Assembly: GCF_021568905.1 (NCBI RefSeq)
Contig: NZ_JAKGSB010000001.1
Coordinates: 248,001 to 312,000, forward strand
Length of the DNA: 64,000 nt
Reading direction: 5' to 3'
Source: Zavarzinia marina
GTDB lineage: Bacteria; Pseudomonadota; Alphaproteobacteria; Zavarziniales; Zavarziniaceae
The position numbers and the translations under genes were made by a program. This document shows positions 4,041 to 55,108 of the stretch, piece by piece (position 1 is the first letter of the stretch; the number at the start of each line of letters is the position of its first letter). Under the pieces are notes generated by a model. It saw nothing but the letters and a program-made list of their open reading frames with translations, was not told the origin of the DNA and ran no database searches.

Positions 4041-4586
4041 GGCGATACCGGGCGCCACGGCCGGGAAGTCGATATCGGTCTGCGCCACTTCGTTCAGGTA
4101 GTTGGTCCAGATGTTGAGGGCGACGTGCTGGACGATCTCGATGATCTGGGCGTCGTCATAGTCGGCGGCGCGCAGGTCCCGCAGGTCAGCGTCCGAAACA
4201 TGGCCCCGGGTCTCCACGACCTTCCGGGCGAAGCGGACGGCGACATCGGCGCGGGCGTCGGTCGAGCGGCCGGCGCGATTGGCCGCGATCTCCTCGGGCG
4301 AGAGCTTGGCCAGATTGCTGCCGAGATAGGTATGGGCCGACAGGCAATAGCCGCAGCCGTTGAATTCGGCGATGGCGAGCGCGATCCGCTCGCGGGTGGC
4401 GGCCGGCAGGCGGCCCTTGCCGAGAGCACCGAAAATGCCGAGGTAGCCTTCCAGCGCGGCCGGGCTCCGGGCGGCGAGGCGGAACAGGTTCGGCGCGCTG
4501 CCGAGCTGCTTTTCGACCTGGCGCAGCAAGGGCTGCGAGGCTTCCGGGGCGGCGTCGATCGAGGCGGGGATGGTGATGCGGGACAT
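4035..4586 (-). CDS. AhpD-like / carboxymuconolactone decarboxylase family peroxidase-related protein
   Basis: This 183-aa protein carries the CxxC-x3-H redox motif of AhpD-type alkylhydroperoxidases: Cys78-Gly-Tyr-Cys81-x3-His85 in EFNGCGYCLSAH. Members reduce peroxides through a disulfide relay; the physiological partner here is unknown. I start at the ATG giving MSRITIPAS because an AGGAG lies 8 bases upstream; an in-frame start 69 bp further upstream would add a low-complexity Pro/Ser leader and is unlikely. It is divergent from a LysR gene, its likely regulator, with a small dyad between them. The stop codon lies in the last unit of the 16-bp repeat array. Confidence 0.85.
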   Translation of the reverse strand: MSRITIPASIDAAPEASQPLLRQVEKQLGSAPNLFRLAARSPAALEGYLGIFGALGKGRLPAATRERIALAIAEFNGCGYCLSAHTYLGSNLAKLSPEEIAANRAGRSTDARADVAVRFARKVVETRGHVSDADLRDLRAADYDDAQIIEIVQHVALNIWTNYLNEVAQTDIDFPAVAPGIAA

Positions 4587-4648
4587 GGGCTTGCTCCTGT
4601 TGGCCGGGGTGAGAGGGGGTGTCGGGGGTGACGGGGGCAAGCTACCGG

Positions 4649-4665
4649 CTTCCATATTTTAGAAG
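4649..4665. promoter_or_regulatory. Candidate LysR operator between divergent genes
   Basis: CTTC-N9-GAAG (4649-4652 and 4662-4665) forms a dyad around an AT-rich centre, CATATTTTA, in an otherwise GC-rich gap between the AhpD-like gene and its divergent LysR gene. LysR proteins often bind such interrupted dyads and control the divergent neighbour. The assignment is inferred from position only. Confidence 0.35.
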
Positions 4666-14187: not shown

Positions 14188-15840
<1,653 letters not shown>

Positions 15841-15865
15841 GTCCGGCCCATCCAGGCTCGTTGAG

Positions 15866-15895
15866 ACGGGGCCGGCGAAAGCCGGCCCCGTTTTC
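15866..15895 (+). terminator. Rho-independent terminator of groESL
   Basis: A perfect 11-bp stem (ACGGGGCCGGC at 15866-15876 and its complement at 15881-15891) with a GAAA tetraloop is followed by TTTTC. It lies 26 bp after the groEL stop codon. Confidence 0.9.
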
Positions 15896-16004
15896 GTTCG
15901 GCCCGCCCGACCTTCGCCCGGGCCCTTTGCCGGCCCCTTCGGCAACCTCCGGCCCCGTCACGTGTTGATGACGACATGAGGACACGATTCGGCGGAGGAA
16001 AATC

Positions 16005-47889: not shown

Positions 47890-48066
47890 GTGAGCCCAAG
47901 CCTCGGTCACCGTCGCCGCGCGACCGCGGCTTTTCGTTTGAAGAATTTCAGCCCAGAAAACCCCCACAATCGACAGCAATAAAACCCGAAATGGTTATAT
48001 ATGAATGGTCGTTAACCGTGTTGCGGGGCGAAACCCCTGATGCACGGTAGATTTGGGGCGATTTCG

Positions 48067-48195
48067 ATGCGCGAAAACAATCCGAAATGGGAGGAAAAGC
48101 CACATCCATTGCAGGCGATTCTCGTCTCGCGCCCGATTGGGGAATTTATGATAAAGGCACACATTAAGGTGGTGGAGCAGGAGAATGGGGACTGA
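48067..48195 (+). CDS. Very small protein, first gene of a micro-operon (42 aa)
   Basis: An unannotated-size ORF starting MRENNPKWEEKPHPLQAILV and ending VVEQENGD. It overlaps the next ORF by 11 bp in another frame. GGGG about 9 bp upstream could act as a ribosome site; an in-frame ATG at 48040 would add nine residues. A TTATATAT at 47995-48002 is a possible -10 box. Function unknown. The case rests on the tight overlap chain and on base composition lower in GC than the surroundings. Confidence 0.4.
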   Translation: MRENNPKWEEKPHPLQAILVSRPIGEFMIKAHIKVVEQENGD

Positions 48196-48340
48196 GACAA
48201 TTCAGCGTGAAATAATCTCCGGCGTCGTCCGCGAACGCCGCAGTAACGAAAACGAAACGCGAAGCGAGAAGAACTTCCAGAATATGGCGATGTTCAAGAT
48301 GGCGCCGAAGTTCGATTGGAAGGCGGGAAACACAAGATGA
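48185..48340 (+). CDS. Very small basic protein, second gene of a micro-operon (51 aa)
   Basis: A 51-aa ORF starting MGTETIQREIISGVVRERRS and ending MAPKFDWKAGNTR. A textbook AGGAG lies 4-5 bp before the ATG. Its TGA stop overlaps the ATG of the following 71-aa gene (ATGA at 48337-48340). The product is rich in Arg, Lys and Glu, with no membrane segment. The exact overlap with a recognisable downstream gene supports translation. Confidence 0.6.
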   Translation: MGTETIQREIISGVVRERRSNENETRSEKNFQNMAMFKMAPKFDWKAGNTR

Positions 48341-48552
48341 ACTTCTACGTCTATGAGAACTGGACGCTCGATCGCGCCCGAATCCATCGCGCTGAATGCG
48401 GTTACTGCAACAACGGTCGTGGTATTCAGGCTTCGGATTCAGGGCGCAACGGGCGGTGGCATGGGCCATACGATGACCGAGCCCTGGCGTTCCGCGTAAT
48501 GGAGCGTCTTCGAAGAGCCGATGCGAAACCGTGCGGGATTTGTTCCCCTTAG
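48337..48552 (+). CDS. Small CxxC protein of the YVYENW family (71 aa)
   Basis: The product starts MNFYVYENWTLDRARIHRAE, then CGYCNNGRG, RWHGPYDDRALAFRVMERL and ends in CGICSP. The two CxxC pairs suggest a zinc ribbon or a redox pair. I recognise the general pattern of a short accessory protein scattered among proteobacteria (Y-V-Y-x-N-W, a Cys pair, W-H-G-P-F/Y, C-terminal Cys) but know no function for it. It is translationally coupled to the 51-aa gene. Confidence 0.75.
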   Translation: MNFYVYENWTLDRARIHRAECGYCNNGRGIQASDSGRNGRWHGPYDDRALAFRVMERLRRADAKPCGICSP

Positions 48553-48579
48553 CCAGGACTCGCAAAATACTTCATCGCC

Positions 48580-48609
48580 AAAAAAAAGGCCGGGCCACTA
48601 GGGCCCGGC
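48580..48609 (-). terminator. Rho-independent terminator of the candidate sRNA
   Basis: On the minus strand an 8-bp GC stem (48589-48596 with 48602-48609, loop CTAGT) is followed by C and eight T residues (48580-48587). There is no ORF directly before it, which points to a non-coding transcript. Confidence 0.9.
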
Positions 48610-48745
48610 AAGTCTTACAGGGAGGCTTCACGTCAAAAAGACCGTGAAGTGGTCAGGGCTTGGGGGGCAAGCAACCTGACCGAACGCGGAGCCGGGGGAG
48701 GAGGGAGGCCCCGCATTCAAGGCCGCCGATAACGGCGGCGTCGAA
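48580..48745 (-). ncRNA. Candidate small RNA with CCUCC-loop hairpins (cuckoo/CcsR-like)
   Basis: Read on the minus strand: (1) GCCGCCG-UUAU-CGGCGGC (48722-48739); (2) GCGGGGCC paired with GGCUCCGC, displaying a 13-nt loop UCCCUCCUCCCCC (48686-48714); (3) GGUCAGG/CCUGACC enclosing GCUUG-CCCCC-CAAGC (48651-48681); (4) CUUCACG/CGUGAAG (48626-48649); (5) a free CCUCCC; (6) a terminator, GCCGGGCC/GGCCCGGC then U8 (48580-48609). Every stem is perfect or has one G-U pair. Pyrimidine loops complementary to Shine-Dalgarno sequences are the mark of alphaproteobacterial cuckoo/CcsR sRNAs. The 5' end and promoter are not defined. Confidence 0.75.
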
Positions 48746-48870
48746 ATCTATGTAATCCCGCACCTGCGAAATCACCATTGCTATTGCGAGCGGCGGCTGT
48801 TGCAAAAAATGCATGGAACTTGCCGGACCGTCTTTGTCAAGAAGAATCAATGGCTTGTCCGGAGGGCAGC

Positions 48871-48891
48871 GGGGCCGCCGGCGGCGGCCCC
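48871..48891 (-). other. Hairpin after the LysR gene
   Basis: GGGGCCGCC-GGC-GGCGGCCCC, a perfect 9-bp stem directly after the stop codon of the LysR gene. It has no T-run on the minus strand, so it may be a weak terminator separating the LysR gene from the sRNA. Confidence 0.55.
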
Positions 48892-48896
48892 GGCCG

Positions 48897-49790
48897 TCAG
48901 AAGCCCCACTCCGCCACCTTGCGCAGCATGAAGTCGCGGAACACGCCGATTCGCTTGGTGTCGCGCAATTCCTCGGGGTAGACGAAATAGGTATCGAAGG
49001 TCGGGCCGCCGGTTTCCGGCAGGACCTGGGTCAGCTTGGTGTTGCCGCGCGCCACATAGTCGGGCAGGGCGGCGATGCCGATGCCGGATTCGACCGCCAG
49101 CATCAGGGCGTAGATATTGTTCACCGTGAACACGGGCTTTCGCGGCTTCTGCGGGTCCGACGATTTGGCCAGCAGCCAGTTCACTTCGGACAGCGGCTGC
49201 GGCACGGCGGCGCCGTAGGCGAGCAGGGAGTGGTTGTCCAGGTCCTCCAGGTTCTTCGGCGCGCCGAAACGCTTCAGATAGCTCGGCGCGGCGTAGAGGT
49301 GGTTGGTCACCTGCACCAGCCGGCGCTGCACCAGATCCGCCTGCACGGGGGCGCGGAAGCGGATGGCGATGTCGGCCTGGCGCATGCCGAGGTCGAGCTC
49401 GTCGTCGTCCAGGATCAGATGGACGCGAATGTCGGGATAGAGGTCGGTGAATTCCTTGATCCGCGGCGTCAGCCACAGCATGCCGAAGCTGACCGTGGTG
49501 GTCACCCGCAGTTCGCCGCGCGGCTTGTCCTTGGAATCCGCCAGCATGGCCTCCGCCATCGCAAGCTTGGCGAAGACTTCATGGGCCGTCCGGAACAGCA
49601 GCTCGCCCTGCTCGGTCAGGATCAGGCCGCGCGCGTGGCGGTGGAACAGCGACACCTTCAGGCTTTCCTCGAGGGCGCTGATCTGGCGGCTGACGGCCGA
49701 TTGCGAGAGGTTCAGCACTTCACCGGCATGGGTGAAGCTGCCGGCCTCGGCGACGGCGTGAAAGATCCGCAATTTGTCCCAATCCATCAT
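48897..49790 (-). CDS. LysR-family transcriptional regulator
   Basis: About 297 aa. The helix-turn-helix is WDKLRIFHAVAEAGSFTHAG and LNLSQSAVSRQISALEESLK. The effector domain includes RGELRVTTTVSFGMLWLTPR. This closely resembles a conserved alphaproteobacterial LysR subfamily usually encoded next to trxB, as here (87 bp away, same strand). A link to redox control is an inference from that synteny. ATG 49790 or 49787 are both possible starts. Confidence 0.92.
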   Translation of the reverse strand: MMDWDKLRIFHAVAEAGSFTHAGEVLNLSQSAVSRQISALEESLKVSLFHRHARGLILTEQGELLFRTAHEVFAKLAMAEAMLADSKDKPRGELRVTTTVSFGMLWLTPRIKEFTDLYPDIRVHLILDDDELDLGMRQADIAIRFRAPVQADLVQRRLVQVTNHLYAAPSYLKRFGAPKNLEDLDNHSLLAYGAAVPQPLSEVNWLLAKSSDPQKPRKPVFTVNNIYALMLAVESGIGIAALPDYVARGNTKLTQVLPETGGPTFDTYFVYPEELRDTKRIGVFRDFMLRKVAEWGF

Positions 49791-49877
49791 CGCACGTCCC
49801 CCGGGCGCCGGCGTCAAAGCCCGCTCGCCGCCCCAGATGCCCCATTCACCGCGAGCCGCCCTTGAAGGCGCGGCCCG

Positions 49878-50846
49878 TCATTCCGCGGCCGCGGCCGCCT
49901 CGCCTTCCTGCTGGCCGAGGAAGCGTTCCGCCTCCAGCGCCGCCATGCAACCCATTCCGGCCGAGGTCACCGCCTGGCGGAAGACGTGATCCTTCACGTC
50001 GCCGGCGGCGAAGACGCCCGGAATGCCCGTCGCCGTCGAATCCGGCGCGGTCAGCAGATAGCCGTGCTCGTCCATCGGCAGCTTGCCCTTGAACAGCTCG
50101 GTCGCCGGCGCATGGCCGATGGCGACGAAGAAACCGTCGGTCGCCAGTTCCGAAACCTCGCCCGTCACCAGGTTCTTCAGCCGCACGCCGGTCACCCCCG
50201 GGGGATCGTCGTCGCCCAGGATCTCCTCGACCGCGCTGTTCCAGATCACGTCCACCTTGGGATGGGCGAGCAGGCGGCGCTGATTGGTCATGTCGGCGCG
50301 CAGCGTGTCGCGCCGGTGGATCAGGGTCACCTTGGTCGCGTGATTGGTTAGATAGAGCGCTTCCTCGACCGCCGTATTGCCGCCGCCGACCACCACCACG
50401 GTCTTGCCGCGATAGAAGAAGCCGTCGCAGGTGGCGCAGGCCGAGACGCCGAAGCCCTGGAACTTCTCCTCCGACGGCAGGCCCAGCCATTTGGCGTTGG
50501 CGCCGGTGGCGATGACCACGGCGTCGGCCGTGTAGACCGTGCCCGAATCGCCTTTCAGGGTGAAGGGACGCTCGGTGAAATCGACCTCGGTGATGATGTC
50601 GTCCAGAATCTCGGTGCCGACGTTGCGGGCCTGGGCCTCCATCTGCTCCATCAGCCAGGGGCCCTGGATGGCATCGGCGAAGCCCGGGTAATTCTCGACC
50701 TCGGTGGTGATGGTGAGCTGCCCGCCGGGGACCAGCCCGCGCACCATGACGGGATCGAGGCAGGCGCGCGCGGCATAGATCGCCGCGGTGCAGCCGGCGG
50801 GGCCGGAGCCGATGATCAGCACCCTGGCATGGCGGCGCTCGGACAT
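49878..50846 (-). CDS. trxB: Thioredoxin-disulfide reductase
   Basis: TrxB passes electrons from NADPH through FAD to thioredoxin. The 322-aa product has the FAD motif GSGPAGCTAAIYAARA, the redox-active Cys137-Ala-Thr-Cys140 in SACATCDGFF, the NADPH motif VVGGGNTAVEEALYL and the C-terminal GVFAAGDVKD. The length is normal. It is divergent from an Lrp-family gene across 305 bp. Confidence 0.97.
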   Translation of the reverse strand: MSERRHARVLIIGSGPAGCTAAIYAARACLDPVMVRGLVPGGQLTITTEVENYPGFADAIQGPWLMEQMEAQARNVGTEILDDIITEVDFTERPFTLKGDSGTVYTADAVVIATGANAKWLGLPSEEKFQGFGVSACATCDGFFYRGKTVVVVGGGNTAVEEALYLTNHATKVTLIHRRDTLRADMTNQRRLLAHPKVDVIWNSAVEEILGDDDPPGVTGVRLKNLVTGEVSELATDGFFVAIGHAPATELFKGKLPMDEHGYLLTAPDSTATGIPGVFAAGDVKDHVFRQAVTSAGMGCMAALEAERFLGQQEGEAAAAAE

Positions 50847-51019
50847 GGTCGTGATACTCCAATCGGTTCATGAGCCCCGCGGGGGCGGCGGTCGGCCGGA
50901 CGCGGCGCAAGACCATACATGGCCCCGAGAATCGCCCATGGAAGATTCCCTGTCCGGAACATGTTATGCGTTGCGGGCATGGCTCGCCAAGAGGCGGGAC
51001 GCGGGTTTCGGCGCGATGC

Positions 51020-54616: not shown

Positions 54617-54631
54617 ATGCACTTTGTGCAT
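54617..54631. promoter_or_regulatory. Small palindrome upstream of the DUF1127 gene
   Basis: ATGCAC-TTT-GTGCAT, perfect 6-bp arms, about 90 bp before the DUF1127 start and between it and the divergent peptidase gene. A TATATAT at 54677-54683 could be the -10 box. Operator function is only suggested by position. Confidence 0.35.
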
Positions 54632-54718: not shown

Positions 54719-55108
54719 ATGGCTTACATCCCGTATATGGCGTCCCGTTCGCATGTTGGGCATGGGGCCCGCACGGTCGATCTTTTCGCCATGGCGACGG
54801 CACCGGTTTCGGTGCGCGCGCTGCCGGTGGCGGATACGAGCACTTACGTTTGGGAGGTCTTGATGGATATCGCCAAGGCGCCGGGCAAGATGGTGTCGTC
54901 CGTGCTGGCCATGATCAGGCGGGAACGCCTGCGTGCCGAATTGTCCGCTCTGGACGACCGCCTGCTTGCCGATATCGGCATCGCGCGGAACCAGATCGAC
55001 GGTGTCGTCACCGGCGCCATCCGGCGGGAAGCCGGCACGTGGGTGACGGTGGCTGCGGAAGCGACGACGGCGGCGAACGAAAACGCCGCTCGGCGCACCG
55101 CCGCCTGA
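54719..55108 (+). CDS. DUF1127 domain protein
   Basis: The 129-aa product contains the DUF1127 motif IRRERLRAELSALDDRLLAD followed by IGIARNQID (about 68-96). This Arg-rich short domain is widespread in alphaproteobacteria. Small DUF1127 proteins bind RNA in some species (for example Rhodobacter CcaF1) and affect phosphate and stress responses. Here it has about 65 extra N-terminal and 30 C-terminal residues. A GGAGAAG site precedes the ATG. Confidence 0.85.
   Translation: MAYIPYMASRSHVGHGARTVDLFAMATAPVSVRALPVADTSTYVWEVLMDIAKAPGKMVSSVLAMIRRERLRAELSALDDRLLADIGIARNQIDGVVTGAIRREAGTWVTVAAEATTAANENAARRTAA

Follow-up and report, generated by a model that had tools for sequence, protein, structure and literature searches.

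SorX and SorY are small RNAs (sRNAs) of Rhodobacter sphaeroides. According to the excerpts consulted of three papers (PMC8625941, PMC6238624, PMC8307010), SorX is processed by RNase E out of the ompR1 3' UTR and acts on the mRNA of a spermidine transporter; SorY, made from a promoter of its own and not processed, acts on that of a malate transporter; RpoHI/RpoHII are given as controlling both, and these excerpts mention no LysR regulator. AbcR1 and AbcR2 are described as acting through two anti-Shine-Dalgarno motifs, one carried by a hairpin loop, the other in a single-stranded region, and abcR1 of S. meliloti as having a sigma-70 promoter activated by LsrB through a box at -61 to -49 (PMC8844928). 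Reports on S. meliloti conflict in the parts seen, one finding AbcR unchanged without lsrB whereas another (PMC8844928) finds AbcR1 LsrB-dependent. In Agrobacterium, VtlR is reported to be a direct activator of abcR1 and atu1667 (PMC7486931); atu1667 is orthologous to small Brucella proteins, and their homologues in B. melitensis bear the name DUF1127 (PMC12595884, in part). The nfeR1 gene is described as LsrB-activated, its box spanning -72 to -57 (PMC10746234), and the same excerpted literature has abcR1, nfeR1 and DUF1127 genes activated by LsrB/VtlR in rhizobia and Brucella. Agrobacterium LsrB reportedly carries a redox switch formed by C144 and C273. LsrB has been stated in print to be unique to Rhizobiales (PMC11975290, as excerpted), and in the part seen of another paper the trxB-vtlR arrangement is already called conserved in the class.

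As far as the open-licence literature searched shows, SorX/SorY and AbcR/NfeR1 have been studied apart. Our search of open-licence papers found none joining SorX or SorY with LsrB, VtlR or AbcR; a Sor name and LsrB occur together only in a Salmonella study, among the matches listed and as excerpted, and in PMC11089165 SorX, SorY and LysR appear in the reference list only.

Here we analyse an intergenic locus in a stretch of 64,000 nucleotides (the window), where a structured sRNA with anti-Shine-Dalgarno-like loops had been predicted from sequence and tentatively placed with the cuckoo/CcsR RNAs. We regard it as likely that the locus carries an sRNA gene of the SorX/SorY kind, which lies after trxB-lysR in the place occupied by abcR1/abcR2 in Agrobacterium and Sinorhizobium, is activated by the LysR regulator and acts by anti-Shine-Dalgarno pairing.

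The predicted sRNA gene and its structure

Inspection of the letters bore out the central feature of the original prediction, namely that the minus strand from 48748 to 48580 forms a run of four hairpins followed by a terminator with U8. Folding of 48760-48578 reaches a minimum of -89.2 kcal/mol, whereas shuffles average -61.4 (sd 3.7; z -7.59), and none of 200 shuffles was as stable. The terminator gives the 3' end and the 5' end would lie near 48743, for a predicted length of about 165 nt. The parts of the gene, all on the minus strand, are as follows:

48580..48748, minus: sRNA gene, supported by its fold, by folding into five hairpins in 7 of 7 sequences and by covariation
48722..48739, minus: hairpin 1, 7-bp stem; 100% of cells paired and 2 pairs changed on both sides (7 sequences)
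48682..48718, minus: hairpin 2, stem of 12 bp, C-rich loop UCCCUCCUCCCCC at 48706-48694; candidate anti-Shine-Dalgarno site 1
48651..48681, minus: hairpin 3, 7-bp stem around UUGCCCCCCA at 48670-48661; candidate site 2
48626..48649, minus: hairpin 4 (CUUCACG/CGUGAAG), which opens a SorX-like 3' module
48617..48625, minus: conserved core CCUCCCUGU, single-stranded, linking hairpin 4 to the terminator; candidate site 3
48580..48609, minus: intrinsic terminator, 8-bp stem at 48609-48589 and T8 at 48587-48580

Three C-rich stretches are thus wholly or mostly unpaired: UCCCUCCUCCCCC in loop 2, UUGCCCCCCA in the region of loop 3, and CCUCCCUGU. The 13-nt loop UCCCUCCUCCCCC had been described correctly, but on a stem of 8 bp, where the stem in fact has 12. 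The CCCCC loop at 48667-48663 is likewise real, but the 5-bp inner stem that presents it is peculiar to the window genome; the inner helix at this position has only 2 + 2 bp in the five other members of the genus and differs in the same-family genome G006. CCUCCC at 48625 is unpaired, as had been stated, when the gene is folded alone.

The claim that no reading frame occupies the stretch needs a small correction: a mechanically called 65-aa ORF with a TTG start (48653-48850) overlaps the sRNA. Its frame is broken among genus members by single-base gaps in the alignment, and it does not look like a gene. A further 70-aa, cysteine-bearing ORF on the plus strand (48340-48552) converges on the sRNA and matched nothing in Pfam or NCBIfam at E 0.001.

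Conservation and covariation

Homologues were taken from five genomes of the same genus and one of the same family, making seven sequences with the window. Folded alone, all seven form the five hairpins in the same order, with extra enclosing pairs in some minimum-energy folds. On the model-fitted alignment of these sequences, both sides changed at 10 of 41 pairs, a number reached by none of 500 shuffles, and 20 cells carry a both-sided change against a shuffled mean of 7.6; the unfitted MAFFT alignment gave nearly the same counts. When the pairing partners were slid, no more than 52% of cells were paired, against 88% before. Further pair types are no more numerous in the family than in shuffles, 265 of 500 of which reach the observed number, and the covariation sample is a small one of seven related sequences. 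The covarying stems that had been named as support, if seen in an alignment of orthologous regions, are present, and this conserved structure backs the prediction of a structured sRNA with anti-Shine-Dalgarno-like loops.

Both-sided changes affect 5 of the 12 pairs of hairpin 2 (7 sequences) and 3 of the 7 pairs of hairpin 3. Within the family, hairpin 4, whose register on the alignment is poor (53% of cells paired) yet which every sequence folds individually, and the terminator, invariant in all seven, are uninformative. CUCCCC is found in the hairpin 2 loop region of all seven sequences, inner pairing of that hairpin deviating in the individual folds of L018 and L011, and UUGCCCCCCA within the outer 7-bp stem of hairpin 3 is kept in all seven. 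The C-rich loops are thus kept while the stems around them change.

The SorX-like 3' module

No Rfam family matched the window at gathering thresholds. Below them, the SorX model (RF02784) aligned over its full length (1-73 of 73) to 48654-48583 with 43.2 bits, under the cut-off of 46.6 (E 1.2e-9 over 201 bases, 4e-7 over the window), and this full-length alignment places hairpin, unpaired CCUCCCUGU and terminator in the SorX order. Two relatives exceed the cut-off, one of the same genus (G001, 47.0 bits) and one of the same family (G006, 51.0 bits). Across 60 genomes, 36 match SorX up to E 1 and only 3 are over the cut-off; weak matches mean little here, because 8 of 14 control genomes also match, none of them over the cut-off. 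A weak BjrC68 sRNA-like match was noted elsewhere in the window (15816-15900, plus strand; 26.2 bits against 39, E 0.014).

For wider searches a model, R1, was built from 49 such 3' modules picked by the word CCTCCCTGT, so that invariance of the picking word and of the core CCUCCCUGU among them is by construction. RNAalifold on the MAFFT alignment of these modules recovered hardly any structure (4 pairs, -0.24 kcal/mol), because the terminator stems were misaligned, and the R1 structure was therefore set by hand.

48580..48653, minus: SorX-like 3' module; RF02784 43.2 bits, R1 74.1 bits (a model that includes the window sequence)

R1 gave 76 matches in the 67 loci searched (L200 not being among the matches at that threshold). 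In these wide homologues both sides changed at 14 of 14 pairs, against a shuffled mean of 10.0, and the share of paired cells is 93%, shuffles giving 72%, on an alignment that leans toward structure. At E <=0.001 R1 matches 189 of 386 alphaproteobacterial genomes sampled, in 134 of 275 genera, some of these genomes having contributed sequences to the model; the window's own genome has one match.

The LysR regulator, trxB and the module

The original prediction rightly noted an adjoining LysR gene and a DUF1127 gene 6 kb away, but treated the former as an unusual partner and the latter as the usual one. The meaningful neighbour is in fact the LysR gene, and the DUF1127 gene matters too. The LysR protein has A. 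tumefaciens LsrB (9HH1; PMC11975290, in part) as its best PDB match, at E 6e-102 with the next at 1.5e-33, and is by sequence LsrB/VtlR-like; a binding-site-like palindrome stands ahead of the RNA, and the DUF1127 promoter bears the same palindrome. The sRNA trails lysR by about 150 nt on the same strand, and trxB directly precedes lysR.

48750..48755, minus: putative -10-like element TTACAT, about 55 nt past the box centre, as at the DUF1127 gene
48800..48814, minus: LysR-type (T-N11-A) palindrome ATGCATTTTTTGCAA between lysR and the sRNA, one mismatch to ATGC-N7-GCAT
48897..49817, minus: LysR regulator, LsrB/VtlR-like by best PDB match, cysteine-free
49878..50846, minus: trxB, thioredoxin reductase (TIGR01292, 397 bits, over cut-off)
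50966..50980, minus: palindrome ATGCCCGCAACGCAT upstream of trxB, lying between the two elements of a promoter-like TTGGCG-N18-TAACAT
54617..54631, plus: palindrome ATGCACTTTGTGCAT before the DUF1127 gene, exact ATGC-N7-GCAT
54719..55108, plus: DUF1127 gene, start set at ATG 54719 (PF06568, 36.3 bits)

The window LysR contains no cysteine, C144 and C273 thus being absent; the Agrobacterium redox switch therefore cannot operate here, stress induction is not to be assumed, and the question arises of what a cysteine-free LsrB senses. The LysR is cysteine-free in 33 of 44 module-bearing loci and in 20 of 36 others (3 of these 36 not searched for the module).

Related LysR loci were found with eight LysR proteins, all from module-bearing loci, a choice that favours the module. 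Among the best 80 of 571, trxB lies within 400 nt before LysR in 68 and within 500 nt in 3 more, and 9 have none; LysRs like that of the window, with its LsrB best solved match, occur next to trxB outside Rhizobiales, contrary to the published statement (PMC11975290).

Three of these loci (L040, L079, L114) end too soon, leaving 77 in which R1 was searched; 44 carry a match at E <1e-5 downstream of LysR, which is not an independent estimate because the LysR queries were module-linked and R1 was built partly from those loci. In L067 and L057 the R1 match lies about 1.3 and 2.0 kb after LysR, respectively. Taken from the other side, 18 of the best 30 class matches of R1 follow a same-strand LysR at 1.5 kb or less, and 12 have no LysR in that range; the upstream lysR is about 4.5 kb away in G004 and about 2.8 kb in G043 (L130). 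Some loci hold more than one copy after LysR: three in tandem in L039, L041 and L048 (about 4050-4660; Sneathiella and a related MAG) and two in L054, L059 and L064.

The module is absent from 33 of the 77 loci, of which we take 26 to be Rhizobiales/Hyphomicrobiales and L042, L043, L055, L076 and L080 to be non-rhizobial. In six module-less loci that we inspected (L088, L103, L111, L074, L090, L108) an AbcR-like sequence follows LysR, with ar15 scores of 34.3 bits in L088 and 29.7 in L111, below the cut-off of 40; in L088 ar15 and SorX match one place. Homology of the module to AbcR was considered from R1 matches in L103, L111, L074 and L090 and set aside, these being weak (E 0.07-0.9) and, by eye, resting on the terminator. 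In L087 (Hyphomicrobiales) two ar14-like RNAs follow LysR (27.9 and 30.6 bits; cut-off 58.8).

Palindromic boxes

The box before the sRNA deviates from ATGC-N7-GCAT by one base, with its centre about 64 nt before the putative sRNA start. The same form, ATGC-N7-GCAA, occurs in all seven genus and family sequences, 177-182 nt before the core. Of the 44 module-bearing LysR loci, 32 have an exact ATGC-N7-GCAT 60-260 nt before the module (shuffles 0.3), and 40 have one there when a single mismatch is tolerated (shuffles 6.1); three control patterns gave 0-1 and 0-8, respectively. A sigma-70 consensus scan of 47900-49000 found no promoter and did not pick up TTACAT.

Within the 64-kb window the stricter ATGCAN5TGCAW occurs at two places only, the sRNA and the DUF1127 promoter, giving 3 strand-counted matches against 0.14 expected, a count reached by 1 of 100 shuffles; the loose ATGCN7GCAT with one mismatch allowed is not enriched there (23 found, 34 expected). 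Over DUF1127 loci in eight genomes the strict box is exact in 2 of 30 and has one mismatch in 1 of 30. Where the DUF1127 gene lies about 13 kb or less from the sRNA on the same contig, an exact ATGC-N7-GCAT precedes it in 4 of 5 genus genomes; in G001 the box, read by eye, has one mismatch. Two further exact ATGCAN5TGCAT sites, elsewhere in the window's own genome, were not counted as regulon, one (C11:398090) preceding a frame that looks MocR-type by its translation and the other (C13:291698) lying inside a 203-aa frame.

The palindrome before trxB is exact in 5 of 5 genus genomes (the window included, G002 left out) and missing in G006 and G007. It is a candidate autoregulatory box, and its position between -35-like and -10-like elements suggests autorepression.

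The box recurs in five genomes of family f23, which we treat as Rhodobacter-like on the strength of G028, where two copies of SorX exceed the cut-off. Downstream of the LysR orthologue each of the five has an RNA to which the SorY and SorX models align at a single position, and each of these RNAs is preceded by an exact box; SorY scores are 33.5-62.1 bits (cut-off 111), and SorX exceeds its cut-off in four of the five.

Proposed control and origin of the RNA

We propose that the LsrB/VtlR-like LysR binds the palindrome some 64 nt before the putative start and activates the sRNA promoter. The RNA so made, of about 165 nt and ending at 48580, would pair through its three unpaired C-rich stretches, the two loops and CCUCCCUGU, with the ribosome-binding sites of target mRNAs and block their translation. 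The same LysR probably activates the DUF1127 gene and probably represses its own trxB-lysR operon. Our confidence in this account is lowered by the reported RpoHI/RpoHII control of SorX and SorY, and by the drawing of the LysR loci with module-linked proteins.

The RNA might be real but driven by RpoH, a heat-shock-type sigma factor, with the LysR box secondary or serving another step. The excerpted R. sphaeroides work speaks for such a drive, as does the lack of a sigma-70 match in the scan of the locus; yet the box keeps a nearly fixed distance in 7 of 7 sequences and is exact in 32 of 44 wider loci, and S. meliloti abcR1 is described as having a sigma-70 promoter and needing LsrB (PMC8844928, in part), so that we judge RpoH drive in place of LysR unlikely. 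The two kinds of control could act together. A promoterless origin, in which RNase E releases the RNA from the 3' UTR of the trxB-lysR mRNA as it releases SorX from ompR1 mRNA, would fit an RNA on the lysR strand with no terminator-like site found by our scan in the intervening 150 nt or so, and SorX itself is described as 3'-UTR-derived. We think it distinctly unlikely, since the palindrome precedes the RNA in all seven genus and family sequences, the RNA of G004 has its own box about 4.5 kb from lysR, and SorY, the closer positional parallel, is reported to have its own promoter without processing.

Membership of the cuckoo/CcsR group, as first suggested, or of ar14 (NfeR1), appears highly improbable. 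Although loop 2 contains CCUCCUCCC, ar14 aligns over 48724-48635 and NfeR1 is reported to be LsrB-activated, the scores fall far below the cut-offs (CcsR1 14.0 bits against 65.3 in the Rfam search with the CcsR-type model that had been proposed as a check; ar14 22.1 against 58.8), the RNA lies outside a DUF1127 3' UTR, and exact CCUCCUCCC in loop 2 is confined to the window, in one of seven sequences. We give only a very slight chance to the locus being a structured terminator or mRNA-stabilising 3' end with no trans-acting function: strong stems and a terminator would suit it, and the targets of the RNA are candidates only, but the C-rich loops persist while the stems change, and copies exist with no LysR within 1.5 kb.

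Candidate targets

A search of the window's own genome for CAGGGAGG-N-ATG gave 32 matches, two of them at one gene. Among the fetched matches, 20 have a frame of at least 90 aa, and 10 of these were searched against Pfam, yielding two DUF1302 proteins, DUF1329, an MFS transporter, a ChrR-type cupin, PhnJ, phenol hydroxylase, a 2OG oxygenase, a short-chain dehydrogenase and DUF2189. CAGGGAGG, complementary to CCUCCCUG, stands ahead of the start codon in the two DUF1302 genes and the one DUF1329 gene (L139, L149, L156). As candidate targets, the CAGGGAGG-bearing genes are only a lead.

Comparison with known systems

The trxB-adjacent LysR, the box and the shared place tie SorX/SorY and AbcR/NfeR1 to one regulator, and this link predicts a regulon in many genomes, the module being present in 189 of the 386 sampled. 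It looks as if the arrangement of an sRNA next to its probable activating regulator has been kept in many alphaproteobacteria. With somewhat more conviction than doubt, we suggest a single ancestral alphaproteobacterial circuit in which an anti-Shine-Dalgarno sRNA gene lying immediately downstream of a trxB-adjacent LsrB/VtlR-type LysR is driven by that regulator: SorX, SorY and so far unnamed RNAs from Rhodospirillales and related groups would be products of this circuit or their copies, AbcR would occupy the same seat in Rhizobiales, DUF1127 would be a second ancient target, and the cysteine-free regulator described here would receive an input other than the Agrobacterium thiol switch.

SorX of R. 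sphaeroides (RF02784) shares the hairpin, unpaired CCUCCCUGU and terminator at 43.2 bits; it differs in coming, as far as its published description was seen, from the ompR1 3' UTR, whereas the window sRNA follows lysR, has three extra 5' hairpins, two additional C-rich loops among them, and scores below the SorX cut-off. SorY (RF02651) has the same core, and the RNA after LysR is SorY-matching in 5 of 5 f23 genomes; against the window, however, it reaches 20.0 bits and not its cut-off of 111. MmgR (suhB, RF00519) has in common a CUCCCU stretch ahead of the terminator (24.4 bits), but stays under its cut-off of 41, with gaps and unpaired positions in the first-hairpin alignment. CcsR1-4/cuckoo share with the window sRNA a C-rich loop with CCUCCUCCC, here loop 2; CcsR1, though, is at 14.0 bits against 65.3, and CcsR1-4 are described as located in a DUF1127 3' UTR, whereas the DUF1127 gene of the window is on the opposite strand at 54719-55108. 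NfeR1 (ar14, RF02344) is reported to be LsrB-activated with an upstream box, and the ar14 model has C-rich loops, but it reaches only 22.1 bits against 58.8 over 48724-48635. AbcR1/AbcR2 (ar15, RF02345), on the excerpts seen, are placed after trxB-lsrB/vtlR like the window sRNA; their LsrB box has a candidate counterpart in the palindrome here, as do their anti-Shine-Dalgarno motifs, one on a 5' hairpin loop and the other unpaired, in the C-rich stretches; the core sequence differs, and in the window's whole own genome ar15 (cut-off 40) has one match up to E 10, of 13.9 bits on another contig. Because ar15 has no match at the sRNA, the link to AbcR is one of place, box and design, not of sequence.
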